A stretch of DNA of 64,000 nt, taken from assembly GCF_007860015.1 (NCBI RefSeq), contig NZ_SJPS01000002.1, positions 434,898-498,897 of the forward strand, given 5' to 3'. Position numbers and translations under genes: made by a program. The DNA comes from Bythopirellula polymerisocia (GTDB lineage Bacteria; Planctomycetota; Planctomycetia; Pirellulales; Lacipirellulaceae). The stretch's first letter is position 1. Each line of letters starts with the position of its first letter. Of the stretch, positions 9,641 to 19,110 are shown one piece after another. The notes under the pieces were generated by a model, which saw only the letters and a list, made by a program, of their open reading frames with translations, ran no database searches and was not told where the DNA came from.

Positions 9641-11200
9641 CTATCGATTAAACGTGATTGCTCCAGTGGGGCAGGCGTCGGCACAACGGAGGGCTGCGGA
9701 GCCAAGGGCCTGATCAAGTGTTACTCCAGGTGGGGGGCCGATACGGGTTTCTAGACTGCGTCCTAAGAATGTCAATCCGACGGCGTCCGATGTTTCGCGG
9801 GCGAGTTGCACGCAAATACCACACAAAATGCACTTGCCTAGTTCCAGAACTACTCGCTGCCCAACGATACGTCCTTCAAAGCGGCGTTCGTTTCCGCGGA
9901 ATCGTTGGGCATCGCAATGATACATCGCCGCATAATGATGCAGCCGACAGGTATCAAGGGCCGGGCAATCGCAGCTCAAACAGCGTTCCGCTTCCTGCCG
10001 CACGTCGTCCTCGGACAAATCCTCCACCCGCAGTCGATCATCCAACCGGGCCGTGGTCGGAGCCCCCTCGCAAAAGTCGCAGAGTTCGCCCGCGGAAAGC
10101 CGTGCCAGCCGAGTCTCGAACTTGTGACGACGGTCAGGAATACTGATTCCCCGGAGCCATGCATCGATACACTGTGCCGCCAGCTTTCCTTCGGCCACAG
10201 ATTGAACCACGAGATTGTAAGGCCTCACAGCATTTCCGGCGGCAAACATCCCCTCCCGACTGGTCATCCGTGAGTGGGAGTCAACCCGGATCCCACTGGT
10301 CGTCGTTTGAATCCCAGCCGTGTCTAACCTGTTCACGAGGAAGCGCCCCGTAGCCAGTAACACGGCATCGAACTCACATACCAGTTCTTCCACCGCAATT
10401 TGTTCTCCCAGGCATTGGCCGAGTCGCCGCGTAGTACCCAACGCCAGTGCCGCCTCTGCTTCGTGCTCGAGGATCTTTCTCGGCAACTTGTCTCGCGAAA
10501 ACTCCTCGCCAAGCCGCCCACCAAGCTCTGCTCGCTGTTCAATCAAGGTGCACTGATGCCCCTGCTGGCTGAGATGGTAGGTGGCCGTCAATCCCGTGGG
10601 ACCTCCACCGACGATGGCTACTCGCTTACCCGTGGGTGGAGCCGTCGGGGGCTGATATGGTGAGGGCGAGGCAAGATCCTTGTCTGCGACATAGCGCTTG
10701 ATCTTGCAGATGGCGGCCGGGCTATCATGCTGTCCGCGCCGGCAGGCGCCTTCACACACTTCAGGACACACTCGGCCAAGAATCGCCGGAAGTGCAATAT
10801 CGCGTTTGACAGTTTCAATCGCGGCCCGGTAGTCTCCCGTGGCAGCCTGCCGCAGCATGTCGGGCACATCCATCCCCGCGGGGCATGTATTCTCGCATGG
10901 GGCATGGCAATCGCCGGCATGGTCGGCGAGCAGGAGTTCTATCCCGGTGCGTCGCAACTCACGAATTGCTTGCGTTTCCGACTCAACTCGCATCCCCGCG
11001 CGAACCGGCGTCGAACAAGCCGGCACCAACCCCTCCTTGTCGTCCACTCGTACTAGGCAACACATGCAAGCGTTATTCGCGGGTTGCCCCTCTTGGTAGC
11101 ACAGTGCGGGGAGGTCAATTCCCAACTTGCGGGCTGCGCTGAGGATCGAGACACCCTCGGCGACTTCGATTTTCAAATTGTCGATCCAGATAACGACCAT
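9641..11200 (-). CDS. Iron-sulfur flavoprotein oxidoreductase: [2Fe-2S]/NuoG-like N-terminus plus GltD-like FAD/NAD(P) domain
   Basis: 519 residues. An N-terminal plant-type ferredoxin fold (LCYQEGQPANNACMCCLVRV with later CSTPV) is followed by the His-Cys-rich NuoG-type motif (DHAGDCHAPCENTCP) and the GltD-type Fe-S region (ILGRVCPEVCEGACRRG). Then comes a Rossmann FAD motif (RVAIVGGGPTGLTATYHLSQ, LIEQRAELGGRL) and a second nucleotide-binding part (AVLLATGRF, GMFAAGNAVRPYNLVVQSVA). The C-terminus carries further clusters (CILCGICVQLARE, CADACPTGAITF). Architecturally it matches the NAD(P)-linked subunits of formate dehydrogenases, HydA-like N-termini and NfnB-like proteins. It is the last gene of the six-gene redox operon; its ATG overlaps the stop of the NuoEF fusion (TGATG), so translation is coupled. 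Likely cytoplasmic electron transfer between NAD(P)H and Fe-S carriers; substrate unknown. Confidence 0.8.
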   Translation of the reverse strand: MVVIWIDNLKIEVAEGVSILSAARKLGIDLPALCYQEGQPANNACMCCLVRVDDKEGLVPACSTPVRAGMRVESETQAIRELRRTGIELLLADHAGDCHAPCENTCPAGMDVPDMLRQAATGDYRAAIETVKRDIALPAILGRVCPEVCEGACRRGQHDSPAAICKIKRYVADKDLASPSPYQPPTAPPTGKRVAIVGGGPTGLTATYHLSQQGHQCTLIEQRAELGGRLGEEFSRDKLPRKILEHEAEAALALGTTRRLGQCLGEQIAVEELVCEFDAVLLATGRFLVNRLDTAGIQTTTSGIRVDSHSRMTSREGMFAAGNAVRPYNLVVQSVAEGKLAAQCIDAWLRGISIPDRRHKFETRLARLSAGELCDFCEGAPTTARLDDRLRVEDLSEDDVRQEAERCLSCDCPALDTCRLHHYAAMYHCDAQRFRGNERRFEGRIVGQRVVLELGKCILCGICVQLARETSDAVGLTFLGRSLETRIGPPPGVTLDQALGSAALRCADACPTGAITFNR

Positions 11201-13992
11201 CAGATTACCCTAATTGCCTCCTCTGGACACACAAAGCGGCAGGCATCGCAACGGGTGCAGAGATTCGAATCGATCACATGTTGGCGATAAGGGGTCGCGG
11301 GGATTGCCCCCACCGGGCAGTGTTGCGCGCACAGCGTGCAGCCCACACACTCGCGAGTTACTTCGTAACGAATGATCGCCTTGCAGCGTCCCGCCGGACA
11401 ACGCCCCTCAAGGTGTGCGGCGTATTCATCGCGAAAATATTTCAAGGTTGAAAAGACCGGATTGGGCGCCGTCTTTCCCAGACCGCACATGCTCCCCTGC
11501 GAGACCGCTTGTGCGAGTGCTTCGATTTCATCCAAGTCTCGCGGCTTGCCTTTCCCAGCGCATAGCCGTTCCAGAATATCAAGCAGCTTGCGCGTTCCAA
11601 CGCGACAAAAAGTACAGTGACCACAAGACTCATGCTGCGTGAATTCAAGGAAGTATCGGGCGACATCGACCATACAGTCCTCGTTGTCCAGTACGACAAG
11701 CCCCCCAGAACCCATGATCGCTCCGACCTCACGAAGGCTCTCGTAGTCAATCGGCGTGTCCGCCAGCGAGGCAGGGATGCAGCCTCCCGAAGGCCCGCCT
11801 ATCTGCACGGCTTTGAATTGCTTGCCTTCTGCTACTCCTCCGCCAATGTTGTCGACGATCTCCCGGATGGAGAGCCCCATTGGGATCTCAATCAACCCCC
11901 CATACCGAATCTTCCCGGCTAGAGAGAAGACTTTAGTCCCCTTACTGGTCGCAGTCCCCAACGCAGCGAATCGCTGCGGTCCATTGCGGAGTATCCAGGG
12001 GACGTTCGCAAAGGTCTCGACATTGTTGACCAGCGTGGGCCTGCCGAAGAGTCCTCGCTCGACAGGATATGGTGGTCGCAATTGGGGAATCCCGCGACGG
12101 CCCATGATGGACTGTAGCATGGCGGTTTCTTCGCCACAAACGAATGCACCGGCCCCTTCGACCACCTCGACCGAGAGCGAAAAGTTAGTTCCCAGAATCG
12201 AGTCTCCCAACCAACCGGTCGTGGTCATCCTCTCGATTGCATGCCGTAGTCGCTCGACAGCCAACGGGTACTCGTGTCGAACATAGATTATCGCCTGTCG
12301 GGCCCCCACCGCATAAGCTGCAATGGCCATTCCTTCCAACACCCGAAACGGAAACGATTCCATGACCATGCGGTCCATGAATGCGCCGGGATCCCCTTCA
12401 TCGCCATTGGCGATCAGAAACTTTTCACCCTTGGCATCACTCATTTTCCGCCACTTTACCGCCGTGGGATACCCGGCCCCACCACGGCCACGGAGGCAGC
12501 TTTGCTCGATCACGTCAATTATCGCAGCTGGACTCCGCTCGCGCAAGCACAGCTCGAGGGCACGAAAGCCATCCCTGGCGTGATACTCTTCCAGACTCGC
12601 CGGGTTCAACAGTCCGCTGTGCTCGGTCACGATCCGAATCTGAGGATCAACAAATCGTCGCACCTGCACGTCGCTTACGGGACAGATCTGGCAAACACTG
12701 GCAGCTTCTTGCTCGGGCGCTTTCTCGCTCTGCCAGAGATCGGCCAAGCGATTCCGCCAGCGTTGCGGCCAAGCTGCTGCGTCGGAGAAGCTTCGCAATA
12801 TCTTGCGCACATCAGCCGGTGTAGCACGGGTAGCTACAATCGGATCCATTCCTGGGGCTACCGCTTCCACCAACGGAGTCAAATGACAGATGCCGACACA
12901 ACCAACCGGCTTGATCACCGCATTGAGATGACGTGCCACTATCTCGCGTTCCAGGGAATCCATTACATCGCGACTTCCCCCCGCCACACAGCACGAACCG
13001 ATGCCGATGCGAATCTCCACCGGTGGGGCTGCTAGGCCGCTGCGTCCGTTGACCGCGACAATCGGTTGTTGCGCCCTACCCGTGTGGTCGCACGTCTGGC
13101 GGTTCCAATCTACGAGCGACGAAAGCGATTCCACTGAAACGTGGCCGGCCACTTCGTCATCCACCTCCAGTACCGGAGCTAAAGTGCAGCAGCCCAGGCA
13201 TCCCACCTGTTCGATCGTCGCCATCTGTGCGGCATCGGTATCCTCCCTCGGAGGAATCCCCAACGACCGCCGTAATTGGGCTTCGAGCCGATCCGCCCCA
13301 GCCACATGGCAGGCCGTGCCACGGCAAACTCGCACGAGGTGTTCCCCTCGCGGCTTGGTGCGAAACTTCGTGTAAAACGACGCCACCCCCGCGATGTTTT
13401 CATGAGAGATTTTCGTCACTTCTGCCAAGAGCGTCAGCGCCTGCGGAGGTAAGTACCGGTAGTGCTGGTTGATCGCGTGCAAAAGCGGAATCAAGTGACG
13501 ATCCTCGCAACCAACTTGCCGTACCAAACGTTCAATCAGCGTGAGATCCACCAGTGGCAACTCCTCCCGAAGGAGCAGCGGGGTGACAGCAGCGGGGTGA
13601 CCGTTGCGTTCCTCATTTGCAGAAACGGTCGCAGGAATCTGTACCACTGCAGCGAGCGACCGAGGTGCCATCGGCTTGCCACCCTGTTTCGCCTTGATCA
13701 ATGCGATAAACAACCCCGCGGCAACCAACACGGTGATCCCCGCTAGTCGTTGGTGGTGAGTTCGCGTAAGCGAAGACGCCGTTTGTCGTTCGACCTCCGC
13801 ATCGAATGCATCCCTCGCTGCGGGATTTGTGCGGGCAGCATCCTCGGTCAAGCGGAGTCGCTCGGCCAGTTCGTCGGCACTGCCGACTTGCACAATCCAA
13901 TTGACAGTCAGGAAGGAGACTGCCGCGGTGAGTACCACGAGCGCCACCCCCATCGTGATCGCCCAGGCCATTTGTTTCCGGTGCGATTTCAT
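11200..13992 (-). CDS. Membrane-anchored NuoE-NuoF fusion (NADH-binding FMN/Fe-S oxidoreductase)
   Basis: 930 residues from the ATG at 13992, which overlaps the upstream stop codon (ATGA) and has GGAGG 7 nt upstream. Two hydrophobic helices at about residues 9-31 and 84-99 enclose a charged 50-residue loop, an anchor not found in ordinary NuoE or NuoF. A NuoE-type thioredoxin-like [2Fe-2S] domain follows (CRGTACHVAG near 222, GCLGCC near 265), then a second thioredoxin-like domain (GIGSCCVAGG near 331, GCVGIC near 365). The NuoF core has GRGGAGYPT near 503, NGDEGDPGAF near 530, GAGAFVCGEETAM near 615, an SLBB segment and ESCGHCTFCR near 790. Two [4Fe-4S] ferredoxin motifs close it (CVGCTLCAQHCP, CTRCDACRFVCP). 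The layout after the anchor resembles HydB/HndC-type subunits. Predicted to exchange electrons with NAD(H) at the inner membrane face. Confidence 0.85.
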   Translation of the reverse strand: MKSHRKQMAWAITMGVALVVLTAAVSFLTVNWIVQVGSADELAERLRLTEDAARTNPAARDAFDAEVERQTASSLTRTHHQRLAGITVLVAAGLFIALIKAKQGGKPMAPRSLAAVVQIPATVSANEERNGHPAAVTPLLLREELPLVDLTLIERLVRQVGCEDRHLIPLLHAINQHYRYLPPQALTLLAEVTKISHENIAGVASFYTKFRTKPRGEHLVRVCRGTACHVAGADRLEAQLRRSLGIPPREDTDAAQMATIEQVGCLGCCTLAPVLEVDDEVAGHVSVESLSSLVDWNRQTCDHTGRAQQPIVAVNGRSGLAAPPVEIRIGIGSCCVAGGSRDVMDSLEREIVARHLNAVIKPVGCVGICHLTPLVEAVAPGMDPIVATRATPADVRKILRSFSDAAAWPQRWRNRLADLWQSEKAPEQEAASVCQICPVSDVQVRRFVDPQIRIVTEHSGLLNPASLEEYHARDGFRALELCLRERSPAAIIDVIEQSCLRGRGGAGYPTAVKWRKMSDAKGEKFLIANGDEGDPGAFMDRMVMESFPFRVLEGMAIAAYAVGARQAIIYVRHEYPLAVERLRHAIERMTTTGWLGDSILGTNFSLSVEVVEGAGAFVCGEETAMLQSIMGRRGIPQLRPPYPVERGLFGRPTLVNNVETFANVPWILRNGPQRFAALGTATSKGTKVFSLAGKIRYGGLIEIPMGLSIREIVDNIGGGVAEGKQFKAVQIGGPSGGCIPASLADTPIDYESLREVGAIMGSGGLVVLDNEDCMVDVARYFLEFTQHESCGHCTFCRVGTRKLLDILERLCAGKGKPRDLDEIEALAQAVSQGSMCGLGKTAPNPVFSTLKYFRDEYAAHLEGRCPAGRCKAIIRYEVTRECVGCTLCAQHCPVGAIPATPYRQHVIDSNLCTRCDACRFVCPEEAIRVI

Positions 13993-15068
13993 GTTTTGGC
14001 CTCCACGGGAGCTAGTGGGGTTCTTAGTTGAATGGGCTTGGTGTTTTCGATTTCCACCAGCTCGATTTCGCCCCACTTAACCTGTTGCCGAGGACAATGG
14101 GCGAAGCAACGCGCACAAGCCATGCAGTCCGCGCGGTCTGCCCTGAGATTGCGAATCGCACCAAACGGGCAACTTTCCGCGCACAGTCCGCAGTCGAGTT
14201 CCTCATCGGGCGTGATGCAGACCGACTTCAAGGCATATCGCGACACGATCGCCAAAAGTCCCCCGTAGGGGCAAAGAAATCGGCAATAAGGTCGGCCTAC
14301 AAACATTCCCAATACCAACAAGCCGCCACCCAAAAGCAACATCCAGGCACTCCCACTCAGGCGAAAAAAACCTACGAATGGATCGAACCGACAGATGATG
14401 AAATCCCGCTCGCCAGCCGGTTGCACCGCAAACCATAGTGCCGCGGCAAGATACAAGTATTTCAGCATTCCACCCCAGCGATCGACTGCGCGCGGCAGTT
14501 GCACCGGCCACAACACCGCCAAGTCTTGAATCGCCCCCAGCGGACAGACTCCGCTGCAGAACACGCGCCCTACTAGTAACGCTGCAATCAGCGGGAGCAG
14601 AAAAAACAGCACCACCACAAACGGAACCGCCAACGTGGGATCGGCAATCGCAGCAGCCACATTCTGGATAGCACCGATTGGGCAGACACATCCCTGCCGA
14701 AAAAAACCAAAGTATGCCAGCGAAGCCACGGTGATCGTCACGACCATCCATCTACGTCGCCAACGATGCGCGACCAGCGCTGCCGCCACCAGCGCCGCGA
14801 ACAACAGCACCACATCGACCGCATACCACCAGGTCGACCTTGGAGCGACATGCTGCACGGCGGGAAGTTGATAGGAATCGCCAATGTCTTCGGGTTGTGG
14901 GGCCGCAGTCACTGGCCGCGAGTATTCCTCTTGCCCTCTCACCGGCAACATGACGGTGGCCAGCATCAGGAACAACAGAGTCAGCAGTCCGCACCCCTGT
15001 GCCCAAGCGGACAAGCCGCTTCGCATCGACACCAAGATTGGGTCGGATTGAGTGCGCATGAGAATCAC
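13989..15068 (-). CDS. Membrane polyferredoxin, NosR/NapH/CcoG-like 4Fe-4S protein
   Basis: 359 residues. About six hydrophobic helices carry cysteine motifs at their ends: CVCPIGAIQNV, CSGVCPLGAIQDL and CRFLCPYGGLL, the CP signature of NapH/NosR/RdxA-type membrane ferredoxins. The C-terminal soluble part holds two [4Fe-4S] sets (CGLCAESCPFGAI, CMACARCFAHCPRQQ). NapH and NosR proteins pass electrons between quinone and periplasmic or cytoplasmic partners. The start is GTG at 15068, sharing GTGA with the stop of the Tat ferredoxin gene; an ATG at 15059 is the alternative. The downstream NuoEF fusion overlaps by four bases. Coupled translation on both sides argues that the products form one complex. 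Confidence 0.85.
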   Translation of the reverse strand: MILMRTQSDPILVSMRSGLSAWAQGCGLLTLLFLMLATVMLPVRGQEEYSRPVTAAPQPEDIGDSYQLPAVQHVAPRSTWWYAVDVVLLFAALVAAALVAHRWRRRWMVVTITVASLAYFGFFRQGCVCPIGAIQNVAAAIADPTLAVPFVVVLFFLLPLIAALLVGRVFCSGVCPLGAIQDLAVLWPVQLPRAVDRWGGMLKYLYLAAALWFAVQPAGERDFIICRFDPFVGFFRLSGSAWMLLLGGGLLVLGMFVGRPYCRFLCPYGGLLAIVSRYALKSVCITPDEELDCGLCAESCPFGAIRNLRADRADCMACARCFAHCPRQQVKWGEIELVEIENTKPIQLRTPLAPVEAKT

Positions 15069-15682
15069 ACATGGCCCCCTTCGAGGGTTCTTGCCGGTGC
15101 TGGCTGCGGACCAATACGGCAGTAGGCCTCCTCAGGACAATGCTGCGCGATTGAGCACTGGTTGCAGCAAACGCAGAGATCGTATCGCACTTCCAGCCGG
15201 ATGGAACCCAAACCTGCCGGGTCCTTGCATTCCATTACACACCGGCCACAACCGTTGCATTTGGATTCGTCGATCGTGTACTCGTAGAAATTATTCAGCG
15301 GATCATAAGGATCCACCTCACCAATCGGGGTCCGCACGATCGCGTCTCGTGGGCACAGTTTCTTTGCCGGCAATCCGTCGGGACCCATTGGGCCACGGAC
15401 ATCGTAGTAAGCTGGGCAGATGCAACAGCGACCACACTCGGCATGGTCGTTCACGGCCCGCACCGCCGAAAGGGGCAAAACACAGTCGGTCGCGCACACA
15501 TCGCAGACCTGTTCAGAGCCCGTGACACCCAACCGAATATTCACGCATTTGTTCGGCACAATCGCCCAGGCATCCTCCGAACAGGCCCGGCGACCCAAAA
15601 CGATCCCTGTCCCCCCCAACGCGACCGCGCAGGTTGTTCGTCCCGTACGCTGCAGAAACTGCCGCCTGTCGGGATCATTCAC
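15065..15682 (-). CDS. Tat-exported ferredoxin-like protein (NapG/NrfC type)
   Basis: 205 residues. The N-terminus NDPDRRQFLQRTGRTTCAVA has a twin-arginine motif (RRQFLQ) and hydrophobic core, so the protein is probably exported folded or anchored outside the cytoplasmic membrane. Cysteine sets include CDVCATDC, CGRCCICPAYYD, a classic CNGCGRCVMECKDP and CVCCNQCSIAQHCPE, enough for about three or four [4Fe-4S] clusters, as in NapG/NrfC-type electron-transfer subunits. It lies 12 nt after the NHL-like propeller gene and overlaps the polyferredoxin gene by four bases. Pairing of an extracytoplasmic ferredoxin with a NapH-like membrane protein is the known NapGH arrangement; no nitrate reductase subunit is present here. 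Confidence 0.8.
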   Translation of the reverse strand: MNDPDRRQFLQRTGRTTCAVALGGTGIVLGRRACSEDAWAIVPNKCVNIRLGVTGSEQVCDVCATDCVLPLSAVRAVNDHAECGRCCICPAYYDVRGPMGPDGLPAKKLCPRDAIVRTPIGEVDPYDPLNNFYEYTIDESKCNGCGRCVMECKDPAGLGSIRLEVRYDLCVCCNQCSIAQHCPEEAYCRIGPQPAPARTLEGGHV

Positions 15683-15694
15683 CGCGCACCTCCT

Positions 15695-16525
15695 TCAATG
15701 GCCTGTGGCTTGCAAGAGAAATACCTCGATAGCGCAACGCAGCGGATCAGTCGCATACAGTCGTCCGTGTCCGTCAGCCGCCAGATCAATGTTTTTCGTA
15801 TTAGAATCGAATACCCCATCAGGGGATTGAGTTAGGAACTCACCTTCGGATGTAAAAACCTTCACACGGGGGGGCGCTTTTTCGCTAACGGCAATCATGC
15901 CCTCTGCCGTGGCCGTGATATTAGTTGGATTGCAGCAGCCCCCAAAATCTGCAGGGTCGTTCATTCCAAAGTGGCCAAACCTATCGGTCAAAACACCTTT
16001 CAAATTGTATCGTTCGACACGATGCTTTTGCGGGTGCGCGACCACGACCGATGCATGGTCGGCGTCCAGAGCCAAGTCGAGAACCCCATTGGGGATCATG
16101 AAGCCGCGAGTGTTTACCTTGTTGCCTACCTCTTGCACCCATTTGCCACTGCGATACAAATGAATCGTGCGGTTCGTCGCATCGGCGGCCAGAAGCGTCT
16201 CTCCCACGACGGCCAATCCGGTGACAAGCCCGAGACGGTCCGCATCTTCGATCCGCTGGAGGGGTTTTCCATCGAAATCTAATTGCTCGATTCCTCCCTG
16301 CAGGCCAACCCACAATGAGTCTTCACCCACCGCGATTGACCACCCCGCATCGCTGGTAGGAAGCTGCGCCTCCAGCTCTCCATCGGGAGTAAATCGCTTG
16401 ATCTCGCGATCGCCCAAAGCATACAAGCGATGTTCCGCATCCGTTGCGATTCCGGCCAGTCGCACATGAAACTCTTCCGCCCGATCGCCTTTGCCGCTCA
16501 GTGTGTGGGAATGGGTGAATTGCAT
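15695..16525 (-). CDS. NHL/beta-propeller-like protein of the redox operon
   Basis: 276 residues made of repeated beta-strand units typical of NHL or SMP-30-like propellers: FHVRLAGIATDAEHRLYALG, REIKRFTPDGELEAQLP, VTGLAVVGETLLAADATNRT, GVLDLALDADHASVVVAHPQ, KNIDLAADGHGRLYATDPLR. No signal peptide is visible and no catalytic motif is recognised; a FGGCCNPTNI segment supplies two adjacent cysteines. It lies 9 nt after the PQQ-like lipoprotein gene and 12 nt before the Tat ferredoxin gene, so it belongs to the same transcript. Role in electron transfer is unknown; a scaffold or sensor is possible. Confidence 0.7.
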   Translation of the reverse strand: MQFTHSHTLSGKGDRAEEFHVRLAGIATDAEHRLYALGDREIKRFTPDGELEAQLPTSDAGWSIAVGEDSLWVGLQGGIEQLDFDGKPLQRIEDADRLGLVTGLAVVGETLLAADATNRTIHLYRSGKWVQEVGNKVNTRGFMIPNGVLDLALDADHASVVVAHPQKHRVERYNLKGVLTDRFGHFGMNDPADFGGCCNPTNITATAEGMIAVSEKAPPRVKVFTSEGEFLTQSPDGVFDSNTKNIDLAADGHGRLYATDPLRCAIEVFLLQATGH

Positions 16526-16534
16526 GTGTCGTTG

Positions 16535-17980
16535 CTATTCTCTTGGGGAAATCTTGGGTTGAACGCTATGCCGTCGGGAAAGTGCTGCCACACGAGCATC
16601 CGCTTTGGCGATGTCCAGGCAGATCAGCTTGCCCAAGTCACGTATCAGCAATTTGCCATGCGAGATGATTGGCGGCGCCCAAACATCCGGCCCTTCGAGC
16701 AATTTTATGTTGGCCAATTCTTCGTAATGATCCGCCCTCGCATCGAGAACACGCAGCACACCCGTCTTTCCCTCCAGGACGAAGAATTTCCCGTCTGCCA
16801 AGACGTAGCCTCCCATACCAAAGGACGCTTCTCCTTCGCTGGTCCACACCTCATTCCCTTCCAGGTCGAGACAGGTCCACAGCCCGCGTTGCTTCTTGCC
16901 GATGCCATAGACATGGCCACCGGAGAGAATAGGAGTCTGTACTTCCGAGTTCCATCCTGCGGTTGGTGGCGGGAGACTTACTACTTCACTAGTAACCCAA
17001 TCGTCGCCGCTACGCTTCACCTCGCAGACCACCGTTTGCGCGTGATAACCACCCGTGAGAAAAAATCGCCCATCACCTAGGGGCAACGGCGTCGACGAGA
17101 CTGCCGTGTTGAACTTCCAAGGAAAATGCCATAGCAGTTTTCCCGTCGCAGCATCGACCCCAACCAAGCCCTTGAGAGTTGTGTATGTGTATTGCTTCAC
17201 ACCATCAATTTCAACAGGCATTATCGACGAATGCGATAACAAGAACTGCTCGGTATTCTCAGTCTCCCAGATCGGGTCCCCGGTCGCTATGTCTAACGCC
17301 ACTATCAGCGCCCGTCCCCCCGTGGCGATCAATACGCGGTCACCCTCTAGTAGTGGACATTGGCCGTTGTACCAGGCGGGAATCGGGCTATCGTACTCAA
17401 CCGGCAAAGCCTTCTTCCAAATCAGCGTTCCATCTCGGGCGTCGAGGCAGTGGATTTCACACTTGGGATCGATTGCGATCACATAGCCACCATCTGTTGC
17501 TGGAGCCGATCGCGTGATCGCATGATTGGGTCTGATGCGTTTCTCAACCTCGTACCGCCATTGCTCCACGCCACTGTCGAGTGCGAGACAACGCACCATC
17601 CACAAGCTATCCCCTTCGTCATAGTCGTTAAAATAAACGCACCTCCCAACCACTGACGGAGCAGCATAGCCCTGACCGACCGGCGTTTCCCAGAGTACAA
17701 GGGGGCCCCCTGCCGACCCACTGCTGAGCAGGTCAGTTTCCTGGGAGATACCATCTCGGTTTCGACCGCGATATTGTGGCCAGTCTTCTAGGGTGAGAGT
17801 GACCGGTCGAGGCAGATCTTCCTCCTTGCGGCGAGTAGTTATCACCACTTTAGCTGGCGCGGTCTCCGCCGAGAGTGCCGACGGCGTTTCCTGAGGAGTG
17901 GAGTGGACCGCTCCCTGGGAGCCGCAGCCTAGGCACGTCGCGATTACCAAAGCCATACCAAGAAAAATAGGCTGCTTCAT
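16535..17980 (-). CDS. PQQ-like beta-propeller lipoprotein
   Basis: 481 residues. The signal peptide ends in a lipobox (MALVIATCLGC). The body repeats the PQQ/pyrrolo-quinoline-type propeller motif with WPQYRGRNRDGISQET near the start and blades such as GVEQWRYEVEKRI, CLDARDGTLIWKKALP, VALDIATGDPIWETENTEQF, GVDAATGKLLWHFPWKF and CLDLEGNEVWTSEGE. This is the family common in planctomycetes as outer-face lipoproteins; most members do not bind PQQ, and no heme motif is present. It is the first gene of the six-gene minus-strand operon, 9 nt before the NHL-like gene. Whether it binds a quinone cofactor cannot be decided from sequence. Confidence 0.8.
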   Translation of the reverse strand: MKQPIFLGMALVIATCLGCGSQGAVHSTPQETPSALSAETAPAKVVITTRRKEEDLPRPVTLTLEDWPQYRGRNRDGISQETDLLSSGSAGGPLVLWETPVGQGYAAPSVVGRCVYFNDYDEGDSLWMVRCLALDSGVEQWRYEVEKRIRPNHAITRSAPATDGGYVIAIDPKCEIHCLDARDGTLIWKKALPVEYDSPIPAWYNGQCPLLEGDRVLIATGGRALIVALDIATGDPIWETENTEQFLLSHSSIMPVEIDGVKQYTYTTLKGLVGVDAATGKLLWHFPWKFNTAVSSTPLPLGDGRFFLTGGYHAQTVVCEVKRSGDDWVTSEVVSLPPPTAGWNSEVQTPILSGGHVYGIGKKQRGLWTCLDLEGNEVWTSEGEASFGMGGYVLADGKFFVLEGKTGVLRVLDARADHYEELANIKLLEGPDVWAPPIISHGKLLIRDLGKLICLDIAKADARVAALSRRHSVQPKISPRE

Positions 17981-18340: not shown

Positions 18341-18565
18341 CTAGATCATCGAAGCCATAAAGTTCGAACCGATGCTTGCATCAGTTGGTTTGTGCCGGCG
18401 AAAAGAACGTTCCGACAACTCGCCCAACTCGCTTCGCATAATGTGAACGTCCTTGGGAGCTTCAATCCCAATCTTCACGCGGTTGCCATTGATTCTCACG
18501 ACCTTCACGATGATCTTCCCGTTGATGTAGATCGACTCACCGATCTTTCTGCTAAGTACTAACAT
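18341..18565 (-). CDS. csrA: Carbon storage regulator CsrA
   Basis: 74 residues from the ATG at 18565, preceded by GGAGG 8 nt upstream; an in-frame ATG 15 nt earlier lacks such a site. [20 protein letters not shown], then [20 protein letters not shown] and RSEL is the full RNA-binding core of CsrA, a dimeric translational regulator that binds GGA motifs in 5' leaders. The C-terminal 20 residues ([15 protein letters not shown]...) are an extension beyond the core. It stands alone between the redox operon and a PEP-CTERM fragment. In other bacteria CsrA controls glycogen and central carbon flow, and glgC and the glyoxylate genes lie nearby; direct regulation here is not shown. Confidence 0.95.
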
Positions 18566-18789: not shown

Positions 18790-19110
18790 GGCAAGCAAGC
18801 TAGCGCGCCCTTTGTTGATTTCGCACAGGGCAGCACGGTCAGTTCGAACAAGTCAACTTGAAGTATGTTGGGCTTCCCCGGAGACTTCGACCACGACGGA
18901 GACGTCGATGGGCGAGATTTTCTCGTTTGGCAGCGTAACGTCAGTGTAGGGAACTTGTCTGACTGGCAGGCAAACTACGGCGCACCACTCACGGCAACAA
19001 GCACTACTGTGCCGGAGCCATCAACCTTGGTTCTGTTTTCGATCGCAGTATTGGGAAGCAACTTCGCCATAAGGCGACGAATCGTCGAGCGAATCGCAAT
19101 AACTCATTGA
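18790..19110 (+). pseudogene. PEP-CTERM protein C-terminal remnant
   Basis: From about 18865 the frame reads LGFPGDFDHDGDVDGRDFLV, WQRNVSVGNLSDWQANYGAP and VPEPSTLVLFSIAVLGSNFA with RRR: a dockerin-like calcium loop followed directly by a PEP-CTERM sorting signal. There is no signal peptide and no body domain. Just upstream, a short piece reading DFAQGSTVSSNKST ends in a stop, so decay has spread over the junction. The layout equals the last quarter of the intact protein at 1753-2709. An 81-residue product from ATG 18865 is formally possible but would not be exported. Confidence 0.7.

Follow-up and report, generated by a model that had tools for sequence, protein, structure and literature searches.

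The Bfu family of electron-bifurcating enzymes is defined by a BfuCBA core (PMC9304861). Its described members closest to the locus reported here are StnABC of Sporomusa ovata and NfnABC (9n5u), both of which combine a NuoE-like subunit, a NuoF-like subunit with a C-terminal 2x[4Fe-4S] domain and a third subunit made of a NuoG N-terminal part and a GltD-like part, and both of which use NADPH as third substrate. StnABC is described as a HydBC-like bifurcating module plus StnC, which is NuoG-like and GltD-like and passes electrons from NADPH through iron–sulfur (Fe-S) clusters to flavin mononucleotide (FMN) (PMC10482914). The BfuBC core is also common to the HydABC hydrogenases. Two membrane-bound Bfu complexes, Nuo-Bfu and Mbh-Bfu, have been predicted, with Planctomycetes among the Nuo-Bfu hosts, and 17 BfuB clades were listed as having no assignable function (Schut et al. 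2022, PMC9304861). A second group of systems, NapGH/MauMN, NosR and RdhC (PceC), shares a NapH-type membrane domain with CX3CP, cytoplasmic 4Fe-4S motifs and an exported ferredoxin gene. The six-gene operon described here, found in a 64,000-nucleotide stretch of Bythopirellula polymerisocia DNA (contig NZ_SJPS01000002.1; hereafter the window), has features of both groups. On balance, we favour the reading that its product is a Bfu complex anchored in the membrane, with a transmembrane Fe-S relay to the periplasm or the quinone pool as its third redox partner.

The six open reading frames lie on the minus strand, from 17980 to 9641, in the order PQQ-like, NHL-like, ferredoxin, NapH-like, BfuCB and BfuA-like. 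A gap of 9 nt separates the PQQ-like stop (16535) from the NHL start (16525), and one of 12 nt separates the NHL stop (15695) from the ferredoxin start (15682). The ferredoxin and NapH genes then overlap by 4 nt (15065-15068), the NapH and NuoEF genes by 4 nt (ATGA), given a NuoEF start at ATG 13992, and the NuoEF and NuoG-GltD genes by 1 nt, at 11200. Although the open frame of the fusion protein extends to GTG 14076, ATG 13992 was taken as its likely start because of the ATGA overlap and a GGAGG box preceding it. The NapH-like protein starts at GTG 15068, with ATG 15026 as an alternative. A first-pass annotation, made from the sequence, had given the same six-gene layout and spacing, which the coordinates bear out, and its domain calls for all six proteins are backed by Pfam and NCBIfam, some by matches below the cut-off.

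Compared with StnABC and NfnABC, the operon has BfuC and BfuB fused and equipped with a hairpin, its BfuA-like protein is shorter (519 residues, against 1172 for StnC) and without the NADPH domain, and NapH-like, ferredoxin and propeller partners are added. Nuo-Bfu and Mbh-Bfu likewise couple a Bfu core to a membrane module; here, however, the six genes include no complex I-type pump or hydrogenase, and a NapH-like relay, an exported Fe-S protein and propellers are present instead. No nuo gene is found among the six or among the recurring flank families (labelled mostly by eye) and, unlike in HydABC, no H-cluster (Fe hydrogenase) domain was found in a Pfam scan of the six window proteins. The NapH-like protein differs from the NapGH group in scoring far below the NapH cut-off, in having an extra invariant CxC set and in being coupled to a Bfu core with no recurring terminal reductase. 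The operon may belong to one of the 17 unassigned BfuB clades. As the first-pass annotation had supposed, no description of the six-gene set, or of a complex with this composition or gene order, was found in a literature search limited to open-access papers. Bfu complexes are known as such; what appears to be new is a Bfu core with a port made of NapH-like protein, exported ferredoxin and propellers.

The NADH module and the BfuA-like subunit

The NuoE-NuoF fusion gave Pfam matches to 2Fe-2S_thioredx, Complex1_51K, NADH_4Fe-4S and Fer4. Its best solved matches were, in order, 9bov_B, 9n5u_B (NfnB), 8oh5_B and 7t2r_B; 7t2r ranks fourth for the BfuB part and first for the BfuC part. The BfuA-like protein best matched 9bov_A, 9n5u_A (NfnA) and 8oh5_C, and the top three solved complexes, 9bov, 9n5u (NfnA/NfnB) and 8oh5, are common to both large proteins. 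We take 8oh5 to be StnABC, which its chain labels do not state.

The cluster ligands of BfuB were compared across 84 aligned operon sequences, the window's among them, each covering more than 430 residues. Ligands C438, H525, C531 and C536 of cluster B2 (7t2r numbering) are invariant (84/84), position C476 is Cys in 71/84, and the cysteines of B1, B3 and B4 are kept in 83-84 of the 84. All four C1 cysteines are present in the BfuC part of the window protein. C438, C476, H525, C531 and C536 are the residues named as B2 ligands in the Bfu family, where the B2 His is reported missing in only 8 of 1558 BfuBs and clusters B2-B5 are described as absent from non-bifurcating homologs (PMC9304861). These results suggest that the two large proteins form not the NADH module of complex I but an electron-bifurcating module of BfuCBA (HydABC/StnABC) type. 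The NuoEF-type NADH/FMN domains proposed at first are present, but a plain complex I-type reading fits poorly with the Bfu ligands, with the B2 His in every sequence. Given a Bfu-type module, ferredoxin is probably also a substrate.

In the BfuA-like protein, Pfam matches were obtained to Fer2_4 (above cut-off), Fer4_20, a flavin adenine dinucleotide (FAD) Rossmann domain and Fer4_15 (above cut-off, 23.5 against 22.4), with Fer4_Nqo3 just under (25.7 against 27). Residues 1-293 align to 9-297 of 9n5u_A, and the protein from residue ∼276 on aligns to ∼426 on; the second (NADPH) Rossmann domain of 9n5u_A lies between the aligned stretches and has no counterpart in the window protein. Of the NuoG/GltD-like flavoprotein in the first-pass annotation, the Fer2 and FAD Rossmann domains are therefore present, whereas the GltD-like NADPH domain is lost; Acidobacteria-type relatives retain it. 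In StnC, the corresponding subunit, electrons from NADPH are taken up at an FAD; with no NADPH domain in BfuA, the third electron partner would lie outside this subunit.

Among 84 BfuA sequences of relatives (L081, on the same contig as L056, is a duplicate), 17 have FAD and NADPH domains, 53 have the FAD domain only and 9 have no FAD domain; in 4, neither domain nor a C-terminus was detected (the fused protein of L075 and three fragments), and 1 is cut. Five of the 9 sequences without an FAD domain (343-390 residues) look complete, and the other 4 are probably pieces. The NADPH stretch GGGNTA...YRR...MPC is intact in 14 of the 16 distinct sequences with both domains and degenerate in L116 and L151. 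The Asp of GxFAxGD is kept in 13 of 14 readable sequences with the NADPH domain (2 unreadable), against 15 of 31 without it (22 unreadable). Across related operons, BfuA thus comes in intact, degenerate, FAD-only and flavin-less versions; 11 of the sequences were compared in an alignment. In L075 (G408, 12216-15170), BfuC, BfuB and a flavin-less NuoG-type BfuA are fused into one 984-residue protein, the BfuA part of which, behind BfuCB, has lost the FAD and Fer4_20 regions. In a BfuB tree of 88 sequences, 13 NADPH-retaining operons (plus L104) and four Protein Data Bank (PDB) chains fall on one side of a supported branch (95/82). This fits an ancestral NADPH domain that was later lost, taking the PDB chains, only four in number, as outgroup. 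L116 and L151, whose domains are degenerate, are placed in other parts of the tree, so more than one loss is likely.

The membrane relay, the exported ferredoxin and the propellers

The NapH-like protein is below the NCBIfam cut-offs for NapH (46 against 213 bits for TIGR02163, 42 against 234 for NF007013). It has the features of such a membrane module: two CX3CP motifs, 4Fe-4S motifs, which are C-terminal, and an exported ferredoxin partner. In an alignment of 62 sequences, the CX3CP pairs of both motifs and the 4Fe-4S motif are invariant, as is an extra set of CxC plus C212, which, by the positive-inside rule, would face the periplasm. The exported ferredoxin, aligned over 62 sequences, has Fer4 behind an RRxFL twin-arginine translocation (Tat) motif, in which R6 is invariant and R7 is kept in at least 90%, and has 16 invariant cysteines, giving room for four [4Fe-4S] clusters. 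It matches no NCBIfam model (E up to 1e-5). AlphaFold models had a mean predicted local distance difference test score (pLDDT) of 79.9 for the NapH-like protein and a pLDDT of 75.8 for the ferredoxin.

The window PQQ-like protein is best matched by PQQ_2 (BamB type) and scores 25.6 bits on the quinoprotein model PF01011, against a cut-off of 26.7. Its conserved residues are H153 (82/88), R157 (85/88), W203 (85/88), Y204 (83/88), Q207 (84/88), H250 (84/88) and R447 (88/88). The NHL-like protein gave a weak Pfam match to SGL, under cut-off. Four adjacent columns are nearly invariant, C197 (95/96), C198 (95/96), N199 (94/96) and P200 (95/96), and the Cys-Cys-Asn (CCN) motif is present in 94 of 98 NHL proteins, making it a candidate substrate site. 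Since the conserved residues of both propellers look like ligand sites, a substrate subunit may hide among them. The earlier statement that the operon has no substrate subunit may be wrong given this motif.

An in-frame TAG lies 4 codons before the ATG of the window NHL protein and leaves no space for a signal peptide. An N-terminal hydrophobic segment is found in the NHL protein of most seven-gene operons (see below), and is mostly lacking in the window and Acidobacteria types, as judged by coarse hydropathy on open reading frames with uncurated starts. It is possible that the window-type NHL protein is exported by Tat, hitch-hiking with the ferredoxin.

Recurrence, operon types and surroundings

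A pattern scan of 84,980 species genomes gave at least 587 stretches; of the 587 listed, 557 code for a relative, and the 80 best among those listed were used. Within the phylum, 40 of 392 genomes have the NapH-like protein, the window's genome included (38 at E 1e-37 or better); wide flanks were taken for 20 of the other 39, and also for G051. The loci counted, all chosen via NapH or ferredoxin, number 108 and exclude L081 and the short L015. The exported ferredoxin was found in 11 of 59 genomes, including the window's own: none of 13 in the same genus, 9 of 22 from other genera of the family and 1 of 23 from the order.

Where there was room, the same-strand neighbours of NapH were ferredoxin in 101/101 loci, NHL in 98/98, PQQ-like (upstream) in 84/92, BfuCB in 80/83 and BfuA in 67/71. 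Of the 64 loci that extend at least 4 kb upstream and at least 7 kb downstream of the NapH match, 54 contain all six genes with strand and side conserved, far beyond chance; in 7 the PQQ-like gene alone is absent, and in 3 the Bfu genes are. Over all 108 loci, the complete set was seen in 70. By the phylum labels of the records, these are Planctomycetota (38/60), Acidobacteriota (12/16), Bacteroidota (14/19), Aminicenantes (2/2), KSB1 (1/1), Kiritimatiellota (1/1), one record labelled Chlorobiota (1/1), placed within Bacteroidota by the tree, and records with no phylum label (1/2). Partial sets, some cut by a contig end, were found in Lentisphaerae (2), Verrucomicrobia (3) and Spirochaetales (1). 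The type-strain complete genome of Draconibacterium orientale (L118) has all six genes, so that experiments are possible. The proposal that the six products link cytoplasmic NAD(H) to extracytoplasmic Fe-S carriers is supported by this synteny as far as a conserved unit is concerned; that they form one physical complex is suggested by synteny and gene fusion.

Most relatives (65 of the 95 loci with room) have a seventh gene after NapH, encoding a membrane hairpin plus a PQQ-like propeller, with a third hydrophobic segment in L074. In L118, partial matches bring the seventh-gene protein over the PF01011 cut-off (35.8). The window type has its hairpin fused to BfuC instead, and L056 has it on a separate BfuC. 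A profile match between the window BfuCB hairpin and the N-terminus of the seventh-gene protein (E 2.6e-5, probability 49.5) is only suggestive of homology. The seven-gene type also occurs in two genomes of the window's own family; these cluster with Rhodopirellula and TBK1r (100/98) and are separate from the window type, a placement suggestive of transfer between lineages.

The flanks were compared in a 30-locus and a 110-locus set, and neither showed a recurring hydrogenase, formate dehydrogenase or other redox catalytic subunit; a catalytic subunit routinely adjoining the operon in relatives had been named at the outset as a finding that would refute the first-pass reading. In the 30-locus set the largest shared family was seen in 5 loci. 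In the 110-locus set, counting families at 4 or more loci and leaving out the duplicate L081, there were extra BamB-like propellers (46), an FtsX-type permease (28), a GT4 glycosyltransferase (25), an ATP-binding cassette (ABC) ATPase (22) and five more families (7, 6, 4, 4 and 4 loci). The Pfam scan covered the GT4 and permease representatives, the other labels being given by eye. Members of the four largest families are frequent neighbours of the operon in several phyla, for example at L146:16751-20660. Because homologous permeases are present in 6 of 6 carriers but also in 19 of 20 non-carriers, the glycosyltransferase/ABC cassette was rejected as a specific part of the system. The thioredoxin gene of the L118 operon was likewise considered as a shared part and was not found in the other loci.

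Features of the operon in the window are collected in the table below.

Table. Genes and gene parts of the operon, in window coordinates
Feature	Position	Strand	Basis
PQQ-like (BamB-type) beta-propeller, N-terminal hydrophobic segment, 481 residues	16535..17980	-	Pfam, hydropathy, synteny
NHL-like propeller, 276 residues, no signal peptide, CCN motif at residues 197-199	15695..16525	-	Pfam, synteny, alignment
Codons of the Cys-Cys-Asn motif, NHL propeller	15929..15937	-	Alignment columns
Tat-signal ferredoxin, 205 residues, 16 invariant Cys	15065..15682	-	Alignment of 62 sequences, synteny
NapH/NosR-like membrane polyferredoxin, 359 residues	13989..15068	-	Pfam, NCBIfam, alignment, AlphaFold model
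BfuC-BfuB fusion (NuoE-NuoF type), N-terminal membrane hairpin, 930 residues from ATG 13992	11200..13992	-	Pfam, NCBIfam, structure-database matches
N-terminal hairpin of BfuCB, hydrophobic residues 12-30 and 83-101	13690..13959	-	Kyte-Doolittle scan
BfuB FMN/NADH domain, B1 and B2 cluster region, C-terminal B3/B4 ferredoxin domain	11203..12651	-	Alignment
BfuA-like subunit, 519 residues: Fer2, Fer4_20, FAD Rossmann without NADPH domain, NuoG-type 4Fe-4S	9641..11200	-	Pfam, alignment

A scan for promoters and terminators found 2 and 9 sites, respectively, with no excess over shuffled sequence (4.2 and 9.2). A csrA gene (18341-18565, minus strand; Pfam CsrA, E 2.7e-21) precedes the operon in the same orientation, ∼360 bp away, and CsrA is a possible post-transcriptional regulator of it. 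A short reading frame at ∼18866-19108 on the plus strand contains a DFDHDGDVDGRDFLVWQRN stretch; we take this stretch to be dockerin-like and the end of the frame to be PEP-CTERM-like, the whole being presumably the remnant of a larger secreted protein. The genome itself is 6.14 Mb in 27 contigs and 94.81% complete. Rnf/Nqr matches were found in 22 of 34 carriers, a count that has no non-carrier control.

Electron route and alternative explanations

In the reading we favour, BfuCB would sit in the cytoplasm with its FMN, NADH site and clusters B1-B4 and C1, its hairpin anchoring it in the membrane. NAD(H) would be one of its electron-exchange partners and, by analogy with the family, ferredoxin another. 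BfuA would serve as an Fe-S relay with a vestigial or non-substrate FAD. The next station would be the NapH-like protein: electrons would move between BfuA and its cytoplasmic 4Fe-4S motifs, and it would carry them through the membrane to the Tat-exported four-cluster ferredoxin and the periplasmic propellers; at NapH they might also branch off to the quinone pool. The most likely direction is outward, NADH and reduced ferredoxin being oxidised together (confurcation) and the electrons exported. This direction is favoured because NADH (−280 mV) and ferredoxin (−500 mV; PMC9304861) should jointly drive electrons to any acceptor above about −400 mV. It is possible, if somewhat doubtful, that this is the first bifurcating complex with its third partner across the membrane, with the CCN-bearing NHL propeller, helped by PQQ-like propellers, as the catalytic subunit of a periplasmic oxidoreductase of a new kind.

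Several observations weigh against this scheme. The N-terminal domain of BfuB has SCC...GCVGIC with a spacing that is not canonical for the B5 [2Fe-2S] cluster, although StnB, which bifurcates, is likewise listed without B5 (PMC10482914). Ferredoxin is probably a substrate of BfuCB, a role assigned by family analogy. The case for a periplasmic NHL propeller is weakened because the window-type protein has no export signal, unlike that of most seven-gene operons. In 3 of 83 loci no BfuCB gene stands next to NapH: L171 and L172 have an unlinked BfuCB-BfuA pair elsewhere in the genome, and in L149 the best BfuB match in the genome is HydABC-like, with two weaker matches besides. BfuA is missing in 4 of 71 loci (L113, L122, L145 and L149). 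Unlinked BfuCB-BfuA pairs thus exist, while every locus was ascertained via NapH or ferredoxin. Finally, a strong NrdD match (E <1e-60, a threshold of our choosing) was found in 14 of 38 carriers and 72 of 354 other genomes (P = 0.037, uncorrected for kinship), a mild enrichment that links the operon only weakly with anaerobic life, and no strong NrdD match was found in the window genome.

The alternative that survives best is a quinone-linked complex, which we consider rather unlikely. NADH and ferredoxin would reduce menaquinone at NapH, with the exported ferredoxin as a side branch, as in Nuo-Bfu without its proton pumps; in reverse, the membrane potential would drive electrons from quinol to NADH and reduced ferredoxin. 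The membrane segments of NapH have indeed been proposed as the quinol-oxidising part of NapGH (PMC5928378). However, a ferredoxin that stands beside NapH in every locus with room and keeps 16 invariant cysteines is needless for a pure quinone reductase, and the invariant cysteines of the NapH-like protein seem, from the predicted topology, to lie on both membrane faces, suggesting a through-wire.

Less probable still is a flow in the opposite direction, in which the propellers would oxidise a periplasmic compound and the electrons would move inward to be bifurcated to NAD+ and ferredoxin. The Bfu mechanism is described as reversible (PMC9304861), the conserved polar propeller residues and the NHL CCN site could belong to such an enzyme, and PF01011 is narrowly missed by the window PQQ-like protein and exceeded by the seventh-gene protein of L118. 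Those PF01011 matches are partial, however, the PQQ-like proteins being best matched by BamB-type PQQ_2, and a donor of about −400 mV would be required to drive bifurcation.

We think it improbable that a non-bifurcating BfuCBA merely feeds NADH electrons into complex I or the quinone pool, with the neighbouring genes as accessories. In favour of this, the window genome (G000; 94.81% complete) has a NuoD match (C4:489806-490612) and a single NuoF FMN-domain match, the operon's BfuB, so that its complex I seems to be without an NADH module of its own. Against such a role, the B1-B4 ligands and the B2 His are kept, the NuoD match is missing in 7 of the 34 carriers searched (of 49 found; some genomes are incomplete), and nuo genes do not recur among the neighbours as labelled, mostly by eye. 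That the operon is instead an assembly or envelope-maintenance system, whose electrons go into the maturation or reduction of periplasmic proteins (thiol/disulfide or metal) while the propellers act as chaperone-like scaffolds, is very improbable: NosR/NapH-type proteins may also serve maturation, and the CCN motif and the flanking BamB-like propellers, permease and GT4 would suit an envelope function, but the link to the permease is unspecific, given its homologs in non-carriers, and a thioredoxin gene was found only in the L118 operon.

The operon offers a concrete, testable anatomy, a Bfu core in which a transmembrane Fe-S relay would replace the soluble third substrate. If our preferred scheme is true, an extracytoplasmic partner would be added to electron bifurcation, and NADH and reduced ferredoxin would be disposed of jointly to an external acceptor by an operon without a cytochrome, hydrogenase or ion pump.

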